DNA from: Dehalococcoidia bacterium
GTDB taxonomy: Bacteria > Chloroflexota > Dehalococcoidia > SZUA-161
Length of the DNA stretch: 8,419 nucleotides
Assembly: GCA_030619685.1 (NCBI GenBank)
Contig: JAUXAX010000075.1
Coordinates: forward strand, 1 to 8,419
Direction: 5' to 3'
Both the position numbers and the translations under genes were made by a program. Within the stretch, counting starts at the first letter, position 1. Each line of letters begins with the position of its first letter. A model generated the notes under the pieces. That model was not told the origin of the DNA and did not search any database. It saw nothing but the letters and a program-made list of their open reading frames with translations. Below, in pieces: positions 2 through 8,079 of the stretch.

Positions 2-820
2 CACAAGGTCACGCTCTGCGATCAAAATCCAAGGCCAGGGGGTGCGCTACTCCTGGCATCTATTACCAACAGACGAATGGAGCCAGTGCTCAACTATATG
101 AAAAGAGAGATCGAAAAGCTCCCGATCGAGGTCAAGCTGAATACCCAGGTGACACCTGCCCTGGTTGAGAAAATGAAACCAGATGTGGTCGTTCTAGCAC
201 TGGGCGGGGCCGCTTCCGCCCCGGAGGTGCCAGGCGGCAGTGATATCGTACTTGACCGGGGTGATGTGCAGGCAATCCTTGGTGGCCATCCTATCCCGAA
301 AGGTGGCTTTCTAAGAAAACTTGTCTTCTACCTGGGCGCCCTATTCGTCAGGTACTTCTATAGACCATCGGTCATAAGGTGGCTTTTGAGGTTTAGTTTC
401 CCCTTTAAGAAACGCGTCGTAGTAGTGGGTGGCAATTTTGCCGGCTGCGAGCTTGCGGAAACGCTGGTGGATCGAGGGAAGAAGGTAACGATCATAGAAG
501 AGTCCGGGCGATTGGGTTCGGACATCGAAATCACTCACAGGTGGGTGTTTCTAGATAAGTTAAGAAAGGCCGGCACTAAAATGTTCAAAGAGGCCAAGGT
601 AACGGAGATAACTAACAAAGGAGTAAAGATAAGCCAAGCGGGTTCCACAGAGTTCATCGAGGCAGATACTGTTGTAAAGGTAGGAATAACAACCAACACC
701 GGCCTTGCTCAGGAACTGGAAGGAAGAGTTCCAGAACTTCATCTCGTTGGCGATTGCGCTGAGCCCGGCAAGCTTATGGAGGCCATCGCATCTGGATTCC
801 TTGCCGCTCAGAAGATCTAG
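2..820 (+). CDS. Old-yellow-enzyme-like FAD/NAD(P)-dependent oxidoreductase, C-terminal part (5' end outside window)
   Basis: The reading frame is open from base 2, and the 25 residues before the first ATG (77) are family-like (HKVTLCDQNPRPGG), so ATG 77 is internal and the gene begins left of the window. The visible 272 residues match the FAD/NAD(P)-binding half that follows the flavin TIM barrel in 2,4-dienoyl-CoA and 2-enoate reductases. The end of the first Rossmann unit (PGG near visible residue 12) is followed by VVVLALGG, a second dinucleotide-binding fold (VVVVGGNFAGCELAE, from about 139) and the C-terminal FAD motif LHLVGDCAEP (about 246-255). Such enzymes usually reduce an activated C=C bond with NAD(P)H through FMN, an Fe-S cluster and FAD; that N-terminal half is not visible here. 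An unusual stretch rich in aromatic, hydrophobic and basic residues (about 104-137) lies between the two folds. Family is secure; substrate is unknown. Confidence 0.85.
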   Translation, partial: HKVTLCDQNPRPGGALLLASITNRRMEPVLNYMKREIEKLPIEVKLNTQVTPALVEKMKPDVVVLALGGAASAPEVPGGSDIVLDRGDVQAILGGHPIPKGGFLRKLVFYLGALFVRYFYRPSVIRWLLRFSFPFKKRVVVVGGNFAGCELAETLVDRGKKVTIIEESGRLGSDIEITHRWVFLDKLRKAGTKMFKEAKVTEITNKGVKISQAGSTEFIEADTVVKVGITTNTGLAQELEGRVPELHLVGDCAEPGKLMEAIASGFLAAQKI

Positions 821-2308
<1,488 letters not shown>

Positions 2309-2349: not shown

Positions 2350-2378
2350 TTGACAGTCGGGTGTGCCCTTGCTAAAAT
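2350..2378 (+). promoter_or_regulatory. Sigma70-type promoter with extended -10, upstream of the acyl-CoA operon
   Basis: The -35 box TTGACA (2350-2355) is a perfect consensus. It is followed by a 17-base spacer and the -10 box TAAAAT (2373-2378), one mismatch from TATAAT. A TGC immediately before the -10 (2370-2372) fits the extended -10 motif TGn. Transcription would begin near 2385, leaving a leader of about 110 bases. It sits in the largest intergenic gap of the window, directly before the CoA-transferase-like genes. The match is by eye; no activity is shown. Confidence 0.7.
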
Positions 2379-2395
2379 GCTCACGGCCTTGCTGT

Positions 2396-2452
2396 CCCCT
2401 GACTAGACTTAGTTTTACTTCTTCGAGGTTCAAAAGCAAAAAGGTCAAGGGG
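2396..2452 (+). promoter_or_regulatory. Possible leader hairpin in the 5' untranslated region
   Basis: CCCCTGAC (2396-2403) can pair with GTCAAGGGG (2444-2452), giving an 8-bp stem with one bulged A (2447). The enclosed stretch of about 40 bases is A/T-rich, and its flanks (TTTT near 2413 and AAAA near 2438) could pair further. The element lies between the predicted transcription start and the ribosome binding site at 2484. I recognise no known riboswitch class in it, and it does not mask the ribosome binding site. It may be a chance structure. Confidence 0.25.
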
Positions 2453-2497
2453 CCACACCAAGTAAACTGTACAGAATCCACCGAAAGGAGACGATGT

Positions 2498-3394
2498 ATG
2501 CCCAGTGAGAACAAGGTTGCGAAGTTAAGCGACATTACCAAGATCATCAAGGAGGGGGATAAGGTTGCTGTAGGTGGTTCCTGGCTGGGCAGCCATCCGA
2601 TGGCAATAATACGTGAGATCATTCGCTCTAGAATAAAGAACCTTACGGCCATAACCGTGGTAGGAAGCATAGATATCGACATGCTCATCGGTGCCGGCTG
2701 CTTGAGCAGGCTGATGTTTTCCTTCGTCAGCATGGAGGCCTTCGGGCTGGCGCCCAACTTCCGCAGAGCGATCGAGAAAGAGGGTCTGCCGTACGATGAG
2801 ATTACCGGCCTTGCCGTAATCATAGGACTGGAGGCGGGTGGAAGGAATATTCCGTTTCTTCCCTACCGGGGGCCCTTCGGCTCTGATTTGGTGAAGTATC
2901 GGCCAGGGTTTTATAAGAACATAAAGTGCCCCTTCACCGGAGAGGACCTGATAGCTGCGGCTGCCATAGTGCCGGATGTAGCTATCATCCACGCAACCAG
3001 GGCTGACCATGCGGGTAATGTCCAGATCGAAGGGACTTCGGGAACAGATATAGAGATGATGAGGGCCGCGAAGAAGCGAATTGTCTCGGTAGAGGAGATA
3101 GTGACCGATGAGGAGATACGGAAGCATCCTGAAAAGACCAAGATTCCAAAGTTCCAGGTGGATATGGTCATAGAGGCTCCTCTGGGCGCGCACCCCTGTT
3201 CCTGCGCGCCTGACTACGTGTTTGACCCGTGGCACATAATGAAATACATGCAGGCGGCAACCAGCCCGGAGACCTTCAAGCAGTATCTCGATGAGTATGT
3301 GATGAAGCCGGAATTTGAATACCTTGAAGCTATAGGGGGCATGAGGCAGGCTGCCATACTTCGAAGACTAGCACGGGAGGTGAAGTTCCTATGA
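2498..3394 (+). CDS. Family I CoA-transferase-like alpha subunit (glutaconate CoA-transferase A / IpdA-like)
   Basis: The protein has 298 residues starting at ATG 2498, which has AAAGGAG (2484-2490) 7 bases upstream. The longer in-frame reading from GTG 2363 is rejected because it would start inside the promoter and adds 45 unrelated residues. The body matches subunit A of glutaconate-type CoA-transferases: an N-terminal glycine-rich strand (KVAVGGSWLGSHP, about 22-34), a central GLEAGGRNIPFLPYRGP (about 110-126), a nucleotide-pocket-like IHATRADHAGNVQ, and the late GAHPCSC signature. GGSW...NHP/SHP and LEAGGR...PFLP are also features of IpdA, which with IpdB hydrolytically opens a steroid-derived ring. 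Glu112 could correspond to the catalytic Glu of IpdA, but I cannot align it firmly. It overlaps the next gene by 4 bases (ATGA), which implies translational coupling and a fixed stoichiometry. CoA-transferase or CoA-ester hydrolase both remain possible. Confidence 0.85.
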   Translation: MPSENKVAKLSDITKIIKEGDKVAVGGSWLGSHPMAIIREIIRSRIKNLTAITVVGSIDIDMLIGAGCLSRLMFSFVSMEAFGLAPNFRRAIEKEGLPYDEITGLAVIIGLEAGGRNIPFLPYRGPFGSDLVKYRPGFYKNIKCPFTGEDLIAAAAIVPDVAIIHATRADHAGNVQIEGTSGTDIEMMRAAKKRIVSVEEIVTDEEIRKHPEKTKIPKFQVDMVIEAPLGAHPCSCAPDYVFDPWHIMKYMQAATSPETFKQYLDEYVMKPEFEYLEAIGGMRQAAILRRLAREVKFL

Positions 3395-4245
3395 CACAAT
3401 ATGCGAAAGATTATTCCATTGGCGAGTTGATGTGCGTGACTCTGGCCAAGGAGATCGAAGACGGCGACGTTGTAGTTCTAGGGTCTTTCACCCCTCTTGC
3501 CTACGCTAGCTACATCCTGGCAAAGATTACGCATGCTCCAAACATCACGTTGCTCGCCTACGCCTCGGTTGATACCAGGCCATTCTAGCTATCGTTTACT
3601 CGGGCGGAGGCGGCAGCAACGAGAGGAGCGGCGCTTATGTGGACCATGCTGGAGGACCTCAACTCCGTTCATCTGAAAGGAAGGGGGGATGTCGAGGCAA
3701 TATCGAGCATCCAGGCGGACCAATATGGGAACATCAACCTTTCGGCGGTTGGAGAGTATGACGCGCCGAAGTTGCGCGGACCTGGGGGGGCTGGAGCCCC
3801 TGAGGTGATTAAGATGCATCGCAAGATGATAGGGTATTTCCCGAGTCATACCACGAGAACTTTCGTCCCCAAGGTCGATGTCATAACAGGTACCAGGTAC
3901 GTCATTGGCGCGGAAGAGCGAGTGAAGTCTGGTTACAGGCCCGGCCCCATAAGGTACATCACAAACCTTGCTGTTATCAGCAAAGAGGAGAAAGATAAGC
4001 CGTTCAAGATAGACTCCTTGCACCCAGGCGTCAGCGCTGAGCAAGTGATTGAGAACACCGGTTTTGAACTTGCGGTGCCCAAGGATATACCAGAGACAGA
4101 GAAACCTACGAAGGAACAGGTCAGGCTAATACGAGAGGAGGTTGATCCCTACGGCACGATAGCCTTTGACTTCAAGCCAGGTAGGGAGAGACTGGAATAC
4201 CTGAACGAGATTCTGCAAAAGGAGCTTGAGTCTATCGGCTATTAG
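3391..4245 (+). pseudogene. Family I CoA-transferase-like beta subunit (glutaconate CoA-transferase B / IpdB-like), interrupted by an in-frame TAG
   Basis: Two open stretches, 3391-3588 (65 codons) and 3637-4245 (202 codons), lie in the same frame with one TAG (3586-3588, codon 66) between them. Reading through gives 284 codons, the usual beta-subunit length. The 16 codons after the stop (LSFTRAEAAATRGAAL) look like continuous protein, so this is a single nonsense change, not a frameshift. Family marks are APNITLL near residue 50, IQADQYGNINLS, PGGAGAP and SLHPGVSAEQVIENTGFEL followed by LIREEVDP. The start ATG overlaps the alpha-subunit stop and has GGAGG at 3376-3380. The usual catalytic Glu after the PN(I/L) strand (E-S/A-G in GctB) is not present; YAS is there instead, as in IpdB-like hydrolases. 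A sequencing error, real inactivation, readthrough, or reinitiation at ATG 3637 are all possible. Confidence 0.8.
3621..3639 (+). promoter_or_regulatory. Possible internal ribosome binding site and restart codon after the TAG
   Basis: GAGAGGAG (3621-3628) lies 8 bases before ATG 3637, 48 bases after the in-frame stop. Reinitiation here could make a separate 202-residue C-terminal piece of the beta subunit. The purines also encode ATRGA in the continuous reading, so the match may be accidental. Confidence 0.25.
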
Positions 4246-4305: not shown

Positions 4306-5070
4306 ATGGAATTCGAGACTATACTGCTGGATAAGAAAGACCAAATAGCCACCATTACCTTTAACCGCCCCGAAAAAATGAATGCCGCTAGCCCTGCCAT
4401 GTTTAGCGATCTCGATGCCGCCTTGACCGACATCGAGAAAGACGATGACATAAGAGTGGTGATTCTGACCGGCAAAGGCGAGGCCTTCAGCGCTGGGGCT
4501 GATGTAGAGAAGTTTGAGTTCGATAAGATTATCAATGGAATAGAGTTCATAGAGAACGTTGCGCGGCCATTCATGCATTTCGAGTACTTACCGAAACCTG
4601 TGATAGCCGCCGTTAACGGGTACGCCTATGGTTTCGGCACGGGAATTACCCTTGCCTGTGATATCGTCATCGCCTCGGACAAGGCAAGGTTTAGCACCAG
4701 AGAGGTCAACTGGGGACAGATCCCCATAGAGACATTGCTTCGCGGCGCTGAGATCCTCGGTAAACGCACCATAGCCTATATGGCCCTCACAGGGGCTACC
4801 TTCACTGCTGAAGAGGCAAAGGCTGTGGGGCTGGTAAACAGGGTGGTTCCCCATGAGCAGTTGATGGAAGAGGTGATGAAGACCGCCGAGGGGATAAAGA
4901 AAGGCGCGCCGCTGGCGCAAAAGATGATAAAGAAAGTGCTTAACCGCAAATGCCGTGAGGATTGGGACTGGACTATTGCGATGATGCCGACGCTCTTTGC
5001 CAGTGAGGATGTGGCTGAGGCGAGGGCAGCGTTTATGGAGAAGCGAAAACCGGAGTTCAAAGGCAGATAG
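4306..5070 (+). CDS. Crotonase-superfamily enzyme resembling hydroxycinnamoyl-CoA hydratase-lyase
   Basis: The protein has 254 residues; ATG 4306 follows AAAGGGG (4291-4297). Crotonase features in order are TFNRPEKMNA (18-27), the first oxyanion-hole motif FSAGAD (61-66), PVIAAVNGYAYGFGTG (98-113) and the trimerisation-type C-terminus EKRKPEFKG. Of the two catalytic glutamates of enoyl-CoA hydratase, the second is kept (Glu133 in TREVNWG) while the position of the first is occupied by Gly113. This pattern, with E-V/I-NWG followed by P and the CRE...W segment near 216-222, resembles 4-hydroxycinnamoyl-CoA hydratase-lyase, which hydrates and then cleaves its substrate by retro-aldol chemistry. 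The similarity is recalled, not computed. It lies 60 bases after the beta subunit and 24 bases before the mutase, so it probably acts on an intermediate of the same route. A hydrolase or isomerase role is also possible. Confidence 0.85.
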   Translation: MEFETILLDKKDQIATITFNRPEKMNAASPAMFSDLDAALTDIEKDDDIRVVILTGKGEAFSAGADVEKFEFDKIINGIEFIENVARPFMHFEYLPKPVIAAVNGYAYGFGTGITLACDIVIASDKARFSTREVNWGQIPIETLLRGAEILGKRTIAYMALTGATFTAEEAKAVGLVNRVVPHEQLMEEVMKTAEGIKKGAPLAQKMIKKVLNRKCREDWDWTIAMMPTLFASEDVAEARAAFMEKRKPEFKGR

Positions 5071-5094: not shown

Positions 5095-6795
5095 ATGTTC
5101 GACGAGAAAACTCTAGGAGCGGCGCGAACCCATCAGGAGCAGTGGGAACAAGCTCTCGCCAGATACGAGGGCAGAGACTTCTCTTCAAAGACGAGCTCCG
5201 GCATCCCAATAAAGCCGGTCTACACACCGCTCGATATACAAGATATTGACTACGAAGAAGATATTGGGATGGTGGGCGCTTATCCTTACATGAGAAGCAA
5301 TTATCCCATTCACTACCAGTTCCAGCCCTGGGTAAACCAGCCAGTGCATGGTTATGGATTGCCTGAGGATACCAGAGAGCGAATGGATGCGCTAACCAGG
5401 GCTGGGATGGAAGCCTACTTTGGGGCTAGAGCCTACAACCTGGTATGGGATTACCCGGGGTATTTTGGCATCGACCCAGATGACCCCGATGCCGAGGGTT
5501 ACGTAGGAAAAGACGGGGTTACCTGCAATACGGACGAGGACTTTGCCCGTATGCTCGACGGCATAGACCTGGCCAAGAACAACATCGTGCTCATAAACGG
5601 CGATACGCTTCCGATGTTTGCGATATACATTGCCTACGCCGAGAGCCAGGGTATACCACGGGCCGACCTGCGCGGCAATACAATGAACTGGGTGTTCACA
5701 GCCTGGTACGCCCCCAACTTTATGTGGGAGACTGAGGACGCGCTGAAACTGGCTACCGACAATATCTACTTCTGCGTCAACGAGATCCCGCGCTGGAACC
5801 ACACTAATATACAGGGGCATGCAATTTCGGAGACGGGTGCTGATGCCATCCACCAGATGTCCTTTTGCTTGGCTACTGCTGTCGCAGTTGCCGACTCCTG
5901 TAAGGCCGCCGGCCTGGACCCCAACGCCTTCATGACAGGCATAGGCTTTCAGATAGCTCAGTGTAACGATTTCTTCGAGTATATCTGCATGTTCAGGGCA
6001 TGGAGAAAGCTGTGGGCTGCGATTGCTCGCGAGAGGTATGGCTGCACCAGGCCAGCCGCCATGCACTTGAGGACGCACACCAATACCTCGTGTTTCGAAT
6101 TGATCAAGCAGCAGCCGCTGAACAATATTATTCGCAGCGCCTATCATGCTCTGGGAGCGGCTCTTTCAGGCACGACTGCTATGCAGGTCCCCGCATATGA
6201 CGAGCCTATCGGCATTCCTACCGAGGAATCGGCTATCTTGACTCTCAGGACACAGCAGGTTCTCGTCCATGAGACAGGTGTGACCAGGGTTAGCGACCCG
6301 CTAGCGGGGTCGTACTACGTAGAGTGGTTGACACACACAATTGAGGAGGAGGCCAAGAAGGTCTTGAAGGAGATAGAGGACGCAGGGGGGTTCGTCAAAG
6401 CCCACAAGGATGGCATGCTCGCGCGTGTCCTGCGGAAGGGTTGTGACCAGTGGAGGGAAGATATTGAGACCGGGAAGAGAATAGTTGTCGGCTGGAACAA
6501 ATACGCAACGGAGGAAGACTTGAAGGTGAAGGCCTTCAGGCCCGACCCAGAGGTAGCCAGGACCTCAATCGAGCGAATCAAAGACTATAAGGTGCGAAGA
6601 GACCAGGCGAAAACCGATGCGGCTCTTAATGGAGTAGTGGCAGCATGTGAGAGGTTGAAGAAAGGTGAGTGGGGGCACGTGATGCCGGCATGCATTGAAG
6701 CAGCCAAGGCTAAGGCTACCGCTGGGGAGCTATCGAAGGCGCTAAGGAAAGTCATGAGGTGGGGGCCAGAATACAACGTAATGCTGAAGTATTAG
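5095..6795 (+). CDS. B12-dependent acyl-CoA mutase, large (catalytic) subunit, substrate unassigned
   Basis: The protein has 566 residues; ATG 5095 is preceded by AAAGGAGG (5081-5088). It is a methylmalonyl-CoA mutase-type TIM-barrel subunit without a fused B12 domain, the size of IcmA and HcmA. Family marks include IPIKPVYTP (37-45), YPYMRSNYP (63-71), INGDTLPMFAIYIAYAE (167-183), MHLRTHTNTS (323-332), YDEPIGIPTE (368-377), TGVTRVSDPLAGSYYVE (394-410) and the C-terminal MPACIEAAKAKATAGELS. Adenosyl-contacting Glu370 is kept. By eye alignment to Propionibacterium methylmalonyl-CoA mutase, Tyr89, Gln197, Arg207 and His244 are replaced by Val84, Met197, Pro207 and Ala243, and the usual RQYAGF reads PVHGYG. 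Loss of the Arg that binds the substrate carboxylate argues against methylmalonyl-CoA. The reaction is probably a radical carbon-skeleton rearrangement of another acyl-CoA, with the B12 subunit encoded next door. Confidence 0.88.
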   Translation: MFDEKTLGAARTHQEQWEQALARYEGRDFSSKTSSGIPIKPVYTPLDIQDIDYEEDIGMVGAYPYMRSNYPIHYQFQPWVNQPVHGYGLPEDTRERMDALTRAGMEAYFGARAYNLVWDYPGYFGIDPDDPDAEGYVGKDGVTCNTDEDFARMLDGIDLAKNNIVLINGDTLPMFAIYIAYAESQGIPRADLRGNTMNWVFTAWYAPNFMWETEDALKLATDNIYFCVNEIPRWNHTNIQGHAISETGADAIHQMSFCLATAVAVADSCKAAGLDPNAFMTGIGFQIAQCNDFFEYICMFRAWRKLWAAIARERYGCTRPAAMHLRTHTNTSCFELIKQQPLNNIIRSAYHALGAALSGTTAMQVPAYDEPIGIPTEESAILTLRTQQVLVHETGVTRVSDPLAGSYYVEWLTHTIEEEAKKVLKEIEDAGGFVKAHKDGMLARVLRKGCDQWREDIETGKRIVVGWNKYATEEDLKVKAFRPDPEVARTSIERIKDYKVRRDQAKTDAALNGVVAACERLKKGEWGHVMPACIEAAKAKATAGELSKALRKVMRWGPEYNVMLKY

Positions 6796-6838: not shown

Positions 6839-7237
6839 GTGTCCAAGAATGGGAAACCAAGAGTTCTGCTGGTCAAGCATTGGATTGATATCCACGATCG
6901 GGGCCTGAGGCTGATTGCGTCTCGCTGCAAGAATGCGGGCTTCGAGGTGGTGTATGCCAGTTACAGTCAGCCGGAGGAAGTGGTGAAAATGGCCGTTCAG
7001 GAGGACGTGGACGTTATTGGCATGAGCTTCTTCACAAGTGCCTATGAGGAGCACCTGCCGAAGGTGGTGAAAGGCTTAAAGGAAAACAAAATGGATAATG
7101 TGATTGTGGTTCTTGGAGGGGTTATCCCCGATGAGGACCACGATATGCTAAAGGCACAGGGTGTCAGCCAAATATACGGTCCCGGGTCAGATGTAAACCA
7201 GTTCATAGAGCTGATAAGAACAGAGGTTCGCAAGTAA
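6839..7237 (+). CDS. B12-binding small subunit of the acyl-CoA mutase
   Basis: The protein has 132 residues from GTG 6839, with AAGGGGG (6823-6829) 9 bases upstream; the start gives MSKNGKPRVLLVKHW, the normal N-terminus of the domain. It is a stand-alone cobalamin-binding Rossmann-like domain of IcmB/HcmB size. The DxHxxG motif is present as DIHDRG (17-22), with His19 expected to replace dimethylbenzimidazole as the lower cobalt ligand. It is followed by GFEVVYASYSQPEEVV, the S-x-x segment GMSFFTS and the GG motif VVLGGVIPDED. The conserved run before the His is unusual: most relatives have KxGLDGHDRG, while here it is KHWIDIHDRG. It lies 43 bases after the large subunit, which lacks its own B12 domain, so the two very likely form one heteromeric enzyme that uses adenosylcobalamin. 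Confidence 0.92.
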   Translation: MSKNGKPRVLLVKHWIDIHDRGLRLIASRCKNAGFEVVYASYSQPEEVVKMAVQEDVDVIGMSFFTSAYEEHLPKVVKGLKENKMDNVIVVLGGVIPDEDHDMLKAQGVSQIYGPGSDVNQFIELIRTEVRK

Positions 7238-7281: not shown

Positions 7282-8079
7282 ATGGCGTTTGAGACGATCA
7301 TCCTGGAGAAAAAGGACGGGGTTGCCAGAATAACATTCAACAGACCAGAGGTATTGAATGCGTTTAACCCCAAAATGTCTGATGAACTCAAGGAAGCTGT
7401 AAAGGATATAGCTGCTGACAAGGATGTCAGGGTTGTAGTTATCACCGGTGCAGGCGACCGGGCCTTTATGTCAGGGGCGGACATCGACAAGACGATATTG
7501 GCGTGGGTGGAAATGACGAAGAAGGGTAGAAGAGTCATGGACGATCACAAGGCATACTTCTCACCCACTATGCTTGAAGAGTTACCACAACCGGTGATAG
7601 CAGCAGTCAATGGGTTTGCCATGGGCATGGGCTGCGAGATCGCATTGGGCTGCGACATAAGGATAGCCGCGGATAATGCTCAGTTTGGCCAGCCGGAGAT
7701 AAGACTGGGGATCATGTGCGGCGGCGGCGGCAGCGTGAGGTTGACGCGCCTGGTAGGAAAGGGCAAGGCCATGGAGATGTGCCTCACGGGAGACCCGATC
7801 GATGCCCAGGAGGCATATCGCGTCGGTCTGGTCAACCAGGTGGTGCCCGCCGCAGAGCTGGAGAATGCCGTCAATGCCATGGTAAAGAGGTTGATATGGA
7901 AGGGCGCCGTAGCCCTGGACTCCACCAAGAAGAGCATTAACGCCACCATGGAGATGGGGGTGAAAGAGGCTATCGAAAACGAGGCAGAACTGTTCTCCGA
8001 CATCTTCAAGACCGAAGACGCAGAGGAGGGAGCAAAAGCCTTCCTCGAGAAGAGAAGGCCTGAGTTCAAAGGTAAGTAA
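7282..8079 (+). CDS. Enoyl-CoA hydratase/isomerase (canonical crotonase)
   Basis: The protein has 265 residues; ATG 7282 has AAGGAGG (7270-7276) 5 bases upstream. It has both catalytic glutamates of enoyl-CoA hydratase: Glu119 in GMGCEIALGCD and Glu139 in FGQPEIRLG. The first oxyanion motif is FMSGAD (62-67), and the glycine-rich loop CGGGGSVRLTRLVG (146-159) matches the GAGGTQRL loop of the rat enzyme. It should hydrate a trans-2-enoyl-CoA to a 3-hydroxyacyl-CoA in beta-oxidation. Its ends (MAFETIILEKKDG and LEKRRPEFKGK) closely resemble those of the crotonase at 4306-5070, so the two look like diverged paralogues with different active sites. It is the last gene of the operon and begins 44 bases after the B12 subunit. 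Acyl chain preference cannot be read from the sequence. Confidence 0.93.
   Translation: MAFETIILEKKDGVARITFNRPEVLNAFNPKMSDELKEAVKDIAADKDVRVVVITGAGDRAFMSGADIDKTILAWVEMTKKGRRVMDDHKAYFSPTMLEELPQPVIAAVNGFAMGMGCEIALGCDIRIAADNAQFGQPEIRLGIMCGGGGSVRLTRLVGKGKAMEMCLTGDPIDAQEAYRVGLVNQVVPAAELENAVNAMVKRLIWKGAVALDSTKKSINATMEMGVKEAIENEAELFSDIFKTEDAEEGAKAFLEKRRPEFKGK

Follow-up and report, generated by a model that had tools for sequence, protein, structure and literature searches.

The window analyzed here, an 8,419-nucleotide stretch of contig JAUXAX010000075.1 from the Dehalococcoidia bacterium assembly GCA_030619685.1, carries eight genes, all on one strand (Table 1). This work concerns the sixth, MUTL, which encodes the large subunit of a putative adenosylcobalamin-dependent acyl-CoA mutase, and its downstream neighbor MUTS, which encodes the B12-binding small subunit. 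A CoA-transferase-fold pair resembling IpdAB and a crotonase (ECH1) precede MUTL, and a second crotonase (ECH2) follows MUTS. Judged by alignment, nearly all residues that would ordinarily hold the substrate are replaced in MUTL, and the substrate of its clade is probably new.

MUTL matches PF01642 at 456.2 bits (cutoff, 22.1) across the large-subunit domain and TIGR00641 at 419.5 bits (cutoff, 303.8). It has the mutase TIM-barrel fold of the PF01642 superfamily, and its partner MUTS carries the corresponding B12 domain with DxHxxG; the MUTS sequence KHWIDIHDRG is what we take to be the Lys-Asp-His motif of the cobalt-binding loop. With phmmer, MUTL aligns end to end with 2-hydroxyisobutyryl-CoA mutase (HCM; 4r3u_A, E = 1.3e-86), human methylmalonyl-CoA mutase (MCM; 3.9e-82), and P. 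shermanii MCM (1e-70). The NCBIfam cutoffs for IcmF (1500) and MCM (876), whose models span the whole longer chain, are missed by MUTL; these misses are uninformative because canonical separate large subunits miss the cutoffs too.

Residue register was derived from phmmer alignments to 4r3u_A, human MCM, a mycobacterial MCM, and 1e1c_A (the P. shermanii H244A mutant of MCM) and from a MAFFT alignment of 124 sequences, with which a second MAFFT alignment was concordant. P. shermanii numbering was taken from the alignment, where Tyr89, Gln197, Arg207, Tyr243, Arg283, His328, and Glu370 occupy the expected columns; the Ala at 244 in 1e1c is engineered and was not counted as natural. An initial annotation of this DNA had read Val84 for Tyr89, Met197 for Gln197, Pro207 for Arg207, and His242-Ala243 for Tyr243-His244 in MUTL, with Glu370, RTH, and DPLAGSYYVE kept. 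All of these assignments hold in the phmmer and MAFFT alignments, and His328 is likewise kept. A shifted register restoring His or Arg/Gln, the refuting case set beforehand, was not seen and is ruled out by the concordance of pairwise HMMER and both MAFFT alignments. At 243-244 the register is fixed because the preceding glycine and the following Glu (E247) anchor the motif (GHAISE versus GYHMQE). We take Tyr89 and Arg207 to line the carboxylate side of the MCM substrate and His244 and Gln197 the thioester side; in place of these MCM pairs, MUTL has Val/Pro and Ala/Met.

Table 1. Features of the window and of related loci (positions without a locus prefix refer to the window)
Feature	Position	Strand	Evidence or remark
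OYE-type FMN/FAD reductase, C-terminal part, cut by window start	2..820	+	Profile matches; full-length relative L104:6603-8648 has PF00724
CrtI/phytoene-desaturase-like FAD enzyme	824..2308	+	Profile matches; upstream relatives at four retrieved loci (L100, L101, L104, L110)
IpdA/GctA-like CoA-transferase-fold subunit	2498..3394 (likely start 2498 inside ORF 2363-3394)	+	PF01144 1.6e-28; 1poi_A 6.2e-34; 6con_A 1e-32
IpdB/GctB-like subunit	3391..4245	+	One in-frame stop in first third; Tyr at GctB catalytic-Glu place
Crotonase ECH1	4306..5070	+	Tyr replaces one of two crotonase Glu
Mutase large subunit MUTL, 566 aa, ATG start	5095..6795	+	MCM fold, substituted substrate pocket; PF01642 E 1.8e-136
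Val84 of MUTL (MCM Tyr89)	5344..5346	+	Alignment
Met197 of MUTL (MCM Gln197)	5683..5685	+	Alignment
Pro207 of MUTL (MCM Arg207)	5713..5715	+	Alignment
His242-Ala243 of MUTL (MCM Tyr243-His244)	5818..5823	+	Alignment
Gly282 of MUTL (MCM Arg283)	5938..5940	+	Alignment; loss clade-specific within superclade sample
Glu370 of MUTL, kept	6202..6204	+	Alignment
B12-binding small subunit MUTS, 132 aa	6839..7237	+	PF02310 67 bits (cutoff 32.1); TIGR00640 123.8 bits (cutoff 57.45)
KHWIDIHDRG, Lys-Asp-His motif in MUTS	6875..6904	+	K-x3-D-x-H-x2-G pattern present
Crotonase ECH2, ordinary enoyl-CoA hydratase type	7282..8079	+	Both crotonase Glu present
Type B small subunits with ECHDRG	L087:825-1217, L098:15730-16125, L103:11156-11551, L108:8188-8583

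The replacements recur among relatives. In the best 40 of 6384 database matches (P0001-P0040, from 120 listed), Met197, Gly283, and Glu370 are each found in 40/40; residue 207 is Pro in 34, Ser in 4, Ala in 1, and Val in 1, and residue 244 is Ala in 24, Gly in 15, and Cys in 1. Because they are conserved across these proteins, the MUTL substitutions are neither chance nor a sequencing slip. A family alignment was then read in three parts: 22 rows of the window clade, 23 other rows of the superclade that contains it, and 119 others. Within the window clade, Arg283 is replaced by Gly (22/22, against Arg in 23/23 remaining superclade rows), Gln361 by Thr (22/22), Tyr243 by His (21/22), Asn366 by Pro (20/22; Pro or Ala overall), and Arg82 by Gln (20 rows) or Met (1 row), with Arg87 to Gln, Ser114 to Asn, Asp199 to Trp, and Ser285 to Gly as further changes; Glu370 and His328 are invariant.

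The initial annotation had also stated that the catalytic His is widely kept, which is only partly borne out. Outside the superclade, His244 occurs in 91/119 rows (and Arg or Gln at 207 in 89/119); one of the 28 rows without it is the engineered mutant, so the natural count is 91/118, with 27/118 lacking the residue, 15 of them from a single genome (G397). In the superclade, His244 is present in 0/45 rows and Gln207 in one row only, outside the window clade. Loss of His244 therefore marks a large uncharacterized branch, not MUTL alone. MUTL is under strong purifying selection (dN/dS of 0.04-0.05 for the window copy against L094, L089, and L096), which together with 13 further Chloroflexota copies rules out a pseudogene or artifact.

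For phylogeny, 138 of 162 mutase open reading frames (ORFs; ≥420 amino acids, distinct) and 22 of the 120 listed proteins were sampled; FastTree was run on 164 rows, and IQ-TREE (mixture model, quick search) on 44 of these. The trees, which are without RcmA, pivalyl-CoA mutase (PCM), and the alkylsuccinyl-CoA mutase of alkane degraders, are unrooted and contain long branches. FastTree recovers the superclade, here called "NxMN," with support of 1.00 (45 of 164 rows); in the 44-row IQ-TREE phylogeny, the 24 superclade rows and, among them, the 12 of the window clade each form a group with an SH-aLRT value of 100. Approximately unbiased (AU) tests on the quick tree, in which the window clade alone rather than the whole superclade was united with other rows, reject its union with HCM-type rows (p = 3.4e-88) and with MCM rows (p = 2.3e-14). 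MUTL also stands apart from rows resembling isobutyryl-CoA mutase (ICM) and ethylmalonyl-CoA mutase (ECM), both labels being based on motifs that we presume to be diagnostic; the ICM, HCM, and ECM labels remain motif based because NCBIfam gave none of ten scanned family members those names. The combination of Gln207 with Tyr243-His244 seen in HcmA-type enzymes is absent from MUTL, and the separate 566- and 132-residue ORFs depart from the IcmF architecture, in which B12 domain, GTPase, and mutase share one chain. As to the placement raised by the initial annotation, the trees and AU tests assign MUTL to neither the MCM nor the HCM clade, and none of the classes compared shares its residues on the substrate side. 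A published name for the superclade was not found in the portions of the literature searched, which is not proof of absence.

Among the matches listed, the closest relatives of MUTL include P0003 from a "Dehalococcoidia bacterium" (85% identity). A "Chloroflexi bacterium" contig (L001) carries a copy at 83%, a genome from the class of L001 (G245, locus L094) one at 95%, and a protein named as Thermodesulfobacteriota (P0023) belongs to the clade at 70%. Among 393 genomes sampled from the class of G001, at least nine carry the clade, to which 13 of the 14 matches at E ≤ 1e-200 belong (the exception is L083); these scans scored at most three candidates a genome and may have missed copies. A 395-genome sample from the phylum of G397 held a single clade-bearing genome, G580 (1126 bits, 64% identical).

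A B12 subunit adjoins MUTL in 14/14 other copies, and two operon types can be distinguished, which co-occur in four genomes (G080, G095, G110, and G245). Type A (nine copies besides the window) reads IpdA-IpdB-ECH1-MUTL-MUTS-ECH2 when fullest, and several copies are preceded by CrtI-like and OYE-type genes. Type B (four copies; MUTL identity, 71-74%) has MUTL and MUTS, and at L103:14198-15985 and L108:4607-6394 the IpdA-like and IpdB-like parts lie on one 596-residue ORF; genes near some type B copies encode an AMP ligase, a FabK/NMO-like flavoprotein, and a protein labeled by eye as acyl-CoA-dehydrogenase-like. Type B small subunits carry ECHDRG where others have DxHDRG, with Glu for the conserved Asp in 4/4. 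Two of the four type B operons are immediately flanked by a second, different mutase pair that is divergently transcribed (L103:8993-11132 and L098:13499-15647). An IpdB-like gene is found upstream of MUTL in 10 of 13 Chloroflexota copies; for the other three, the L001 contig starts within ECH1, the L087 contig is short, and the upstream region of L093 differs. A search of plasmids gave 426 records, all below 60% identity.

The immediate neighbors belong to CoA-ester enzyme families. Class I CoA-transferases require a glutamate of GctB, whose place is taken by Tyr in the IpdB-like proteins of 7/7 intact type A copies and, readably, in the window copy, which suggests that the IpdAB-like pair is not a classical CoA-transferase. 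The same fold presumably also serves the decarboxylase AibAB, chains of which (5mzw/5n00) are among the matches to the IpdA- and IpdB-like proteins. The GctB residue (in IIVESG) was taken to be the Glu54 named in PMC5380842, chain index 54 of our script falling two residues after it. According to that paper, IpdAB of the steroid C/D-ring pathway likewise lacks the transferase Glu (Gly57β), is listed as a ring hydrolase, and is encoded beside the ring-opening crotonase EchA20. One of the two crotonase glutamates is missing from ECH1 in 6/6 rows retrieved, and both are present in ECH2 in 6/6 rows. Taken together, the IpdAB-like pair, crotonases, and mutase suggest a ring- or branch-opening pathway.

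From family membership, we infer that MUTL and MUTS form a working adenosylcobalamin-dependent acyl-CoA mutase, in which Co-C homolysis would be followed by hydrogen abstraction from the substrate, a 1,2-shift of a carbon group, and return of the hydrogen. The pocket would have been reshaped to take a bulky acyl-CoA of mainly hydrophobic character. With Pro207 and Val84 the carboxylate site of MCM is gone, and the substrate would accordingly carry no free carboxylate there; Met197, Trp199, Ala243, and Gly282 suggest a hydrophobic cavity that lacks the groups usually donated to the thioester carbonyl. As CoA-ester enzyme families adjoin MUTL, the leading candidate substrate is a bulky acyl-CoA, alicyclic or quaternary-branched. 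The neighbors (the IpdAB-like pair, ECH1 with one crotonase Glu missing, the ordinary hydratase ECH2, and flavin enzymes) suggest that the mutase works in the breakdown of alicyclic or quaternary-branched acids, in a host that is probably an anaerobic bacterium, next to a ring- or chain-opening step, where it would move an acyl group off a carbon that blocks β-oxidation. We assign this explanation as a whole a probability of about 0.5. The initial annotation had suggested a substrate or mechanism outside the known set; the former is favored by the residues and tree placement, and the latter is not, since the cofactor side is kept. Retention of the B12 motif, His328, and Glu370 is compatible with standard radical mutase chemistry acting on a different substrate. 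The H244A variant of MCM (structure 1e1c) reportedly keeps weakened activity, so loss of His244 alone need not abolish the reaction.

Several observations weigh against this explanation. Even CoA binding is uncertain because Arg82, Arg87, and Arg283, which we take to be CoA contacts, are lost. The clade copy of G580 adjoins MUTS with neither IpdAB nor a crotonase beside it, and in the flanks seen, ECH1 is missing from two of four type B copies and ECH2 from all. The IpdA-like protein matches glutaconate CoA-transferase A (120.7 bits) and IpdA (116.7 bits) about equally, and the best solved match of ECH1 is 3-hydroxypropionyl-CoA dehydratase, with no special closeness to MenB-type ring-closing/opening crotonases. 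The in-frame stop in the window IpdB-like gene (3391-4245), intact in seven relatives, may be assembly error, decay, or real variation, and the operon surveys rest on partial annotation of neighboring ORFs.

It seems unlikely that MUTL is a strongly diverged enzyme for a known reaction (methylmalonyl, isobutyryl, 2-hydroxyisobutyryl, ethylmalonyl, or pivalyl type) in which other residues do the same job. The shared fold and HCM as nearest solved structure speak for it, as does RcmAB, described in PMC7176365 as a second 2-hydroxyisobutyryl-CoA mutase type only distantly related to HcmAB, and RcmAB and PCM are not in our trees. However, the AU tests reject union with HCM or MCM, Arg and Gln are absent at 207 from the 40 closest proteins, MCM-like copies are already present in three host genomes and ICM-like copies in two, and 0/8 window genes encode a ligase or MeaB/MeaH-type chaperone. 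A mutase-fold enzyme operating off the classical CoA-thioester pocket, on a non-CoA substrate or a CoA ester bound in another orientation, would accommodate the lost arginines and is likewise doubtful: its immediate neighbors (CoA-transferase fold, two crotonases) belong to CoA-ester enzyme families, and the contact roles of the lost residues are our assumption.

A non-catalytic or regulatory paralogue, as is the beta chain of bacterial MCM, is very improbable. The many lost pocket residues and the second mutase pair that flanks two type B operons out of four would suit such a role, but MUTL is matched by MCM/HCM catalytic chains at E values of 1e-70 to 1e-86, compared with 7e-21 for beta chains and 7e-31 for fused IcmF, and its TMq is 0.92 to HCM versus 0.68 to the beta chain 1req_B. 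The invariant Glu370 and His328, the B12 subunit beside all 14 other copies, and the strong purifying selection also argue against it.

If MUTL is a mutase for alicyclic or quaternary-branched acyl-CoAs, it would supply a missing step in the mineralization of recalcitrant ring carbon by uncultured bacteria and a scaffold for engineering B12 mutases toward new substrates. B12 acyl-CoA mutases are a main biological route for shifting a carbon branch within saturated acids; to our knowledge few of their substrates are known. The clade and superclade represent a large section of the family in which the pocket has been remade, linked to an expressible, assayable operon. We consider it improbable, though worth stating, that the clade has abandoned thioester and CoA-phosphate recognition and couples radical rearrangement of an alicyclic intermediate to IpdAB-like ring opening; the rearrangement could shift the acyl group away from a quaternary ring carbon, or contract or expand the ring. 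This would be a new type of step in the breakdown of steroid-, hopanoid-, or terpenoid-like carbon by uncultured Chloroflexota.

Uncharacterized mutase space is broad, judging from the following counts. PF01642-family matches occur in 217/297 genomes of the phylum sample, most listed with 1-8 first-look candidates and some with 10-16, in a count that scored at most four candidates a genome and may have missed copies. Seven genomes of 1.9-3.1 Mb (G397, loci L114-L138; G473; G610; G587; G506; G535; G437) exceed nearly all others in the phylum sample, with 17-30 large subunits of the MCM family apiece: 30 in G397 (2.8 Mb) and 29, 25, 25, 19, 19, and 17 in the other six. Many of these subunits have altered active-site residues. 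In G397, 19/30 mutases are without His244, and 19/30 have neither Arg nor Gln at 207.

Superclade mutases outside the window clade occupy other contexts. On a Sphingobium sp. WTD-1 plasmid typed as conjugative (L081:10940-21047, NZ_CP119128.1), one occurs with MeaB; its neighbors are a biotin-dependent carboxylase, an AtuA-family protein, and an AMP-binding protein, and acyl-CoA dehydrogenases lie further upstream. This strain offers a cultured host for superclade tests. Copies at L114, L116, L178, and L179 adjoin 2-hydroxyacyl-CoA-dehydratase/benzoyl-CoA-reductase-like pairs, glycyl-radical enzymes, or acyl-CoA dehydrogenases. The two glycyl-radical enzymes, near L116 and L178, fall below every named NCBIfam cutoff listed; that of L178 best matches glycerol dehydratase (2.5e-148), with 1-methylalkylsuccinate synthase MasD (4e-123) also listed, and an alkylsuccinate (fumarate-addition) role may apply there. 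None was recognized beside the window clade among the ORFs annotated, this annotation being partial.

Among known systems, IpdAB with EchA20 of the steroid C/D-ring (HIP) pathway resembles the window in the adjacency of IpdA, IpdB, and a crotonase and in loss of the transferase Glu. The words methylmalonyl and mutase are absent from the main text of the paper on that pathway (PMC5380842), and the IpdA-like protein of the window is about as close to glutaconate CoA-transferase. The nearest solved structure to MUTL is HcmAB (4r3u; 30% identity; TMq, 0.92), but HCM keeps Arg82, Arg87, Gln197, Gln207, Tyr243-His244, and Arg283, all replaced in MUTL. MCM (human 2xij; P. shermanii 1req; 27-30% identity) shares fold, Glu370, His328, and B12 motif with the window pair and differs at Tyr89/Arg207 and Gln197/His244. 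IcmF (4xc6; 5cjw with pivalyl-CoA) has the same fold at 23-24% identity and, as proposed for MUTL, acts on acyl-CoAs without a free carboxylate, whereas the window subunits are separate and lack what we take to be its Phe89/Gln207 signature. PCM performs, on a small substrate, the same kind of shift as proposed for MUTL. The sister rows of the NxMN superclade (Sphingobium plasmid NZ_CP119128, Burkholderiales L002, Desulfatitalea L004, and others), 38-49% identical to MUTL, share with it the loss of His244, mostly Met197, and replacement of Arg82 in nearly all, but retain Arg283 (23/23) and Tyr243 (20/23) and lie among different neighbors, namely carboxylase/AtuA/MeaB or dehydratase-like genes.
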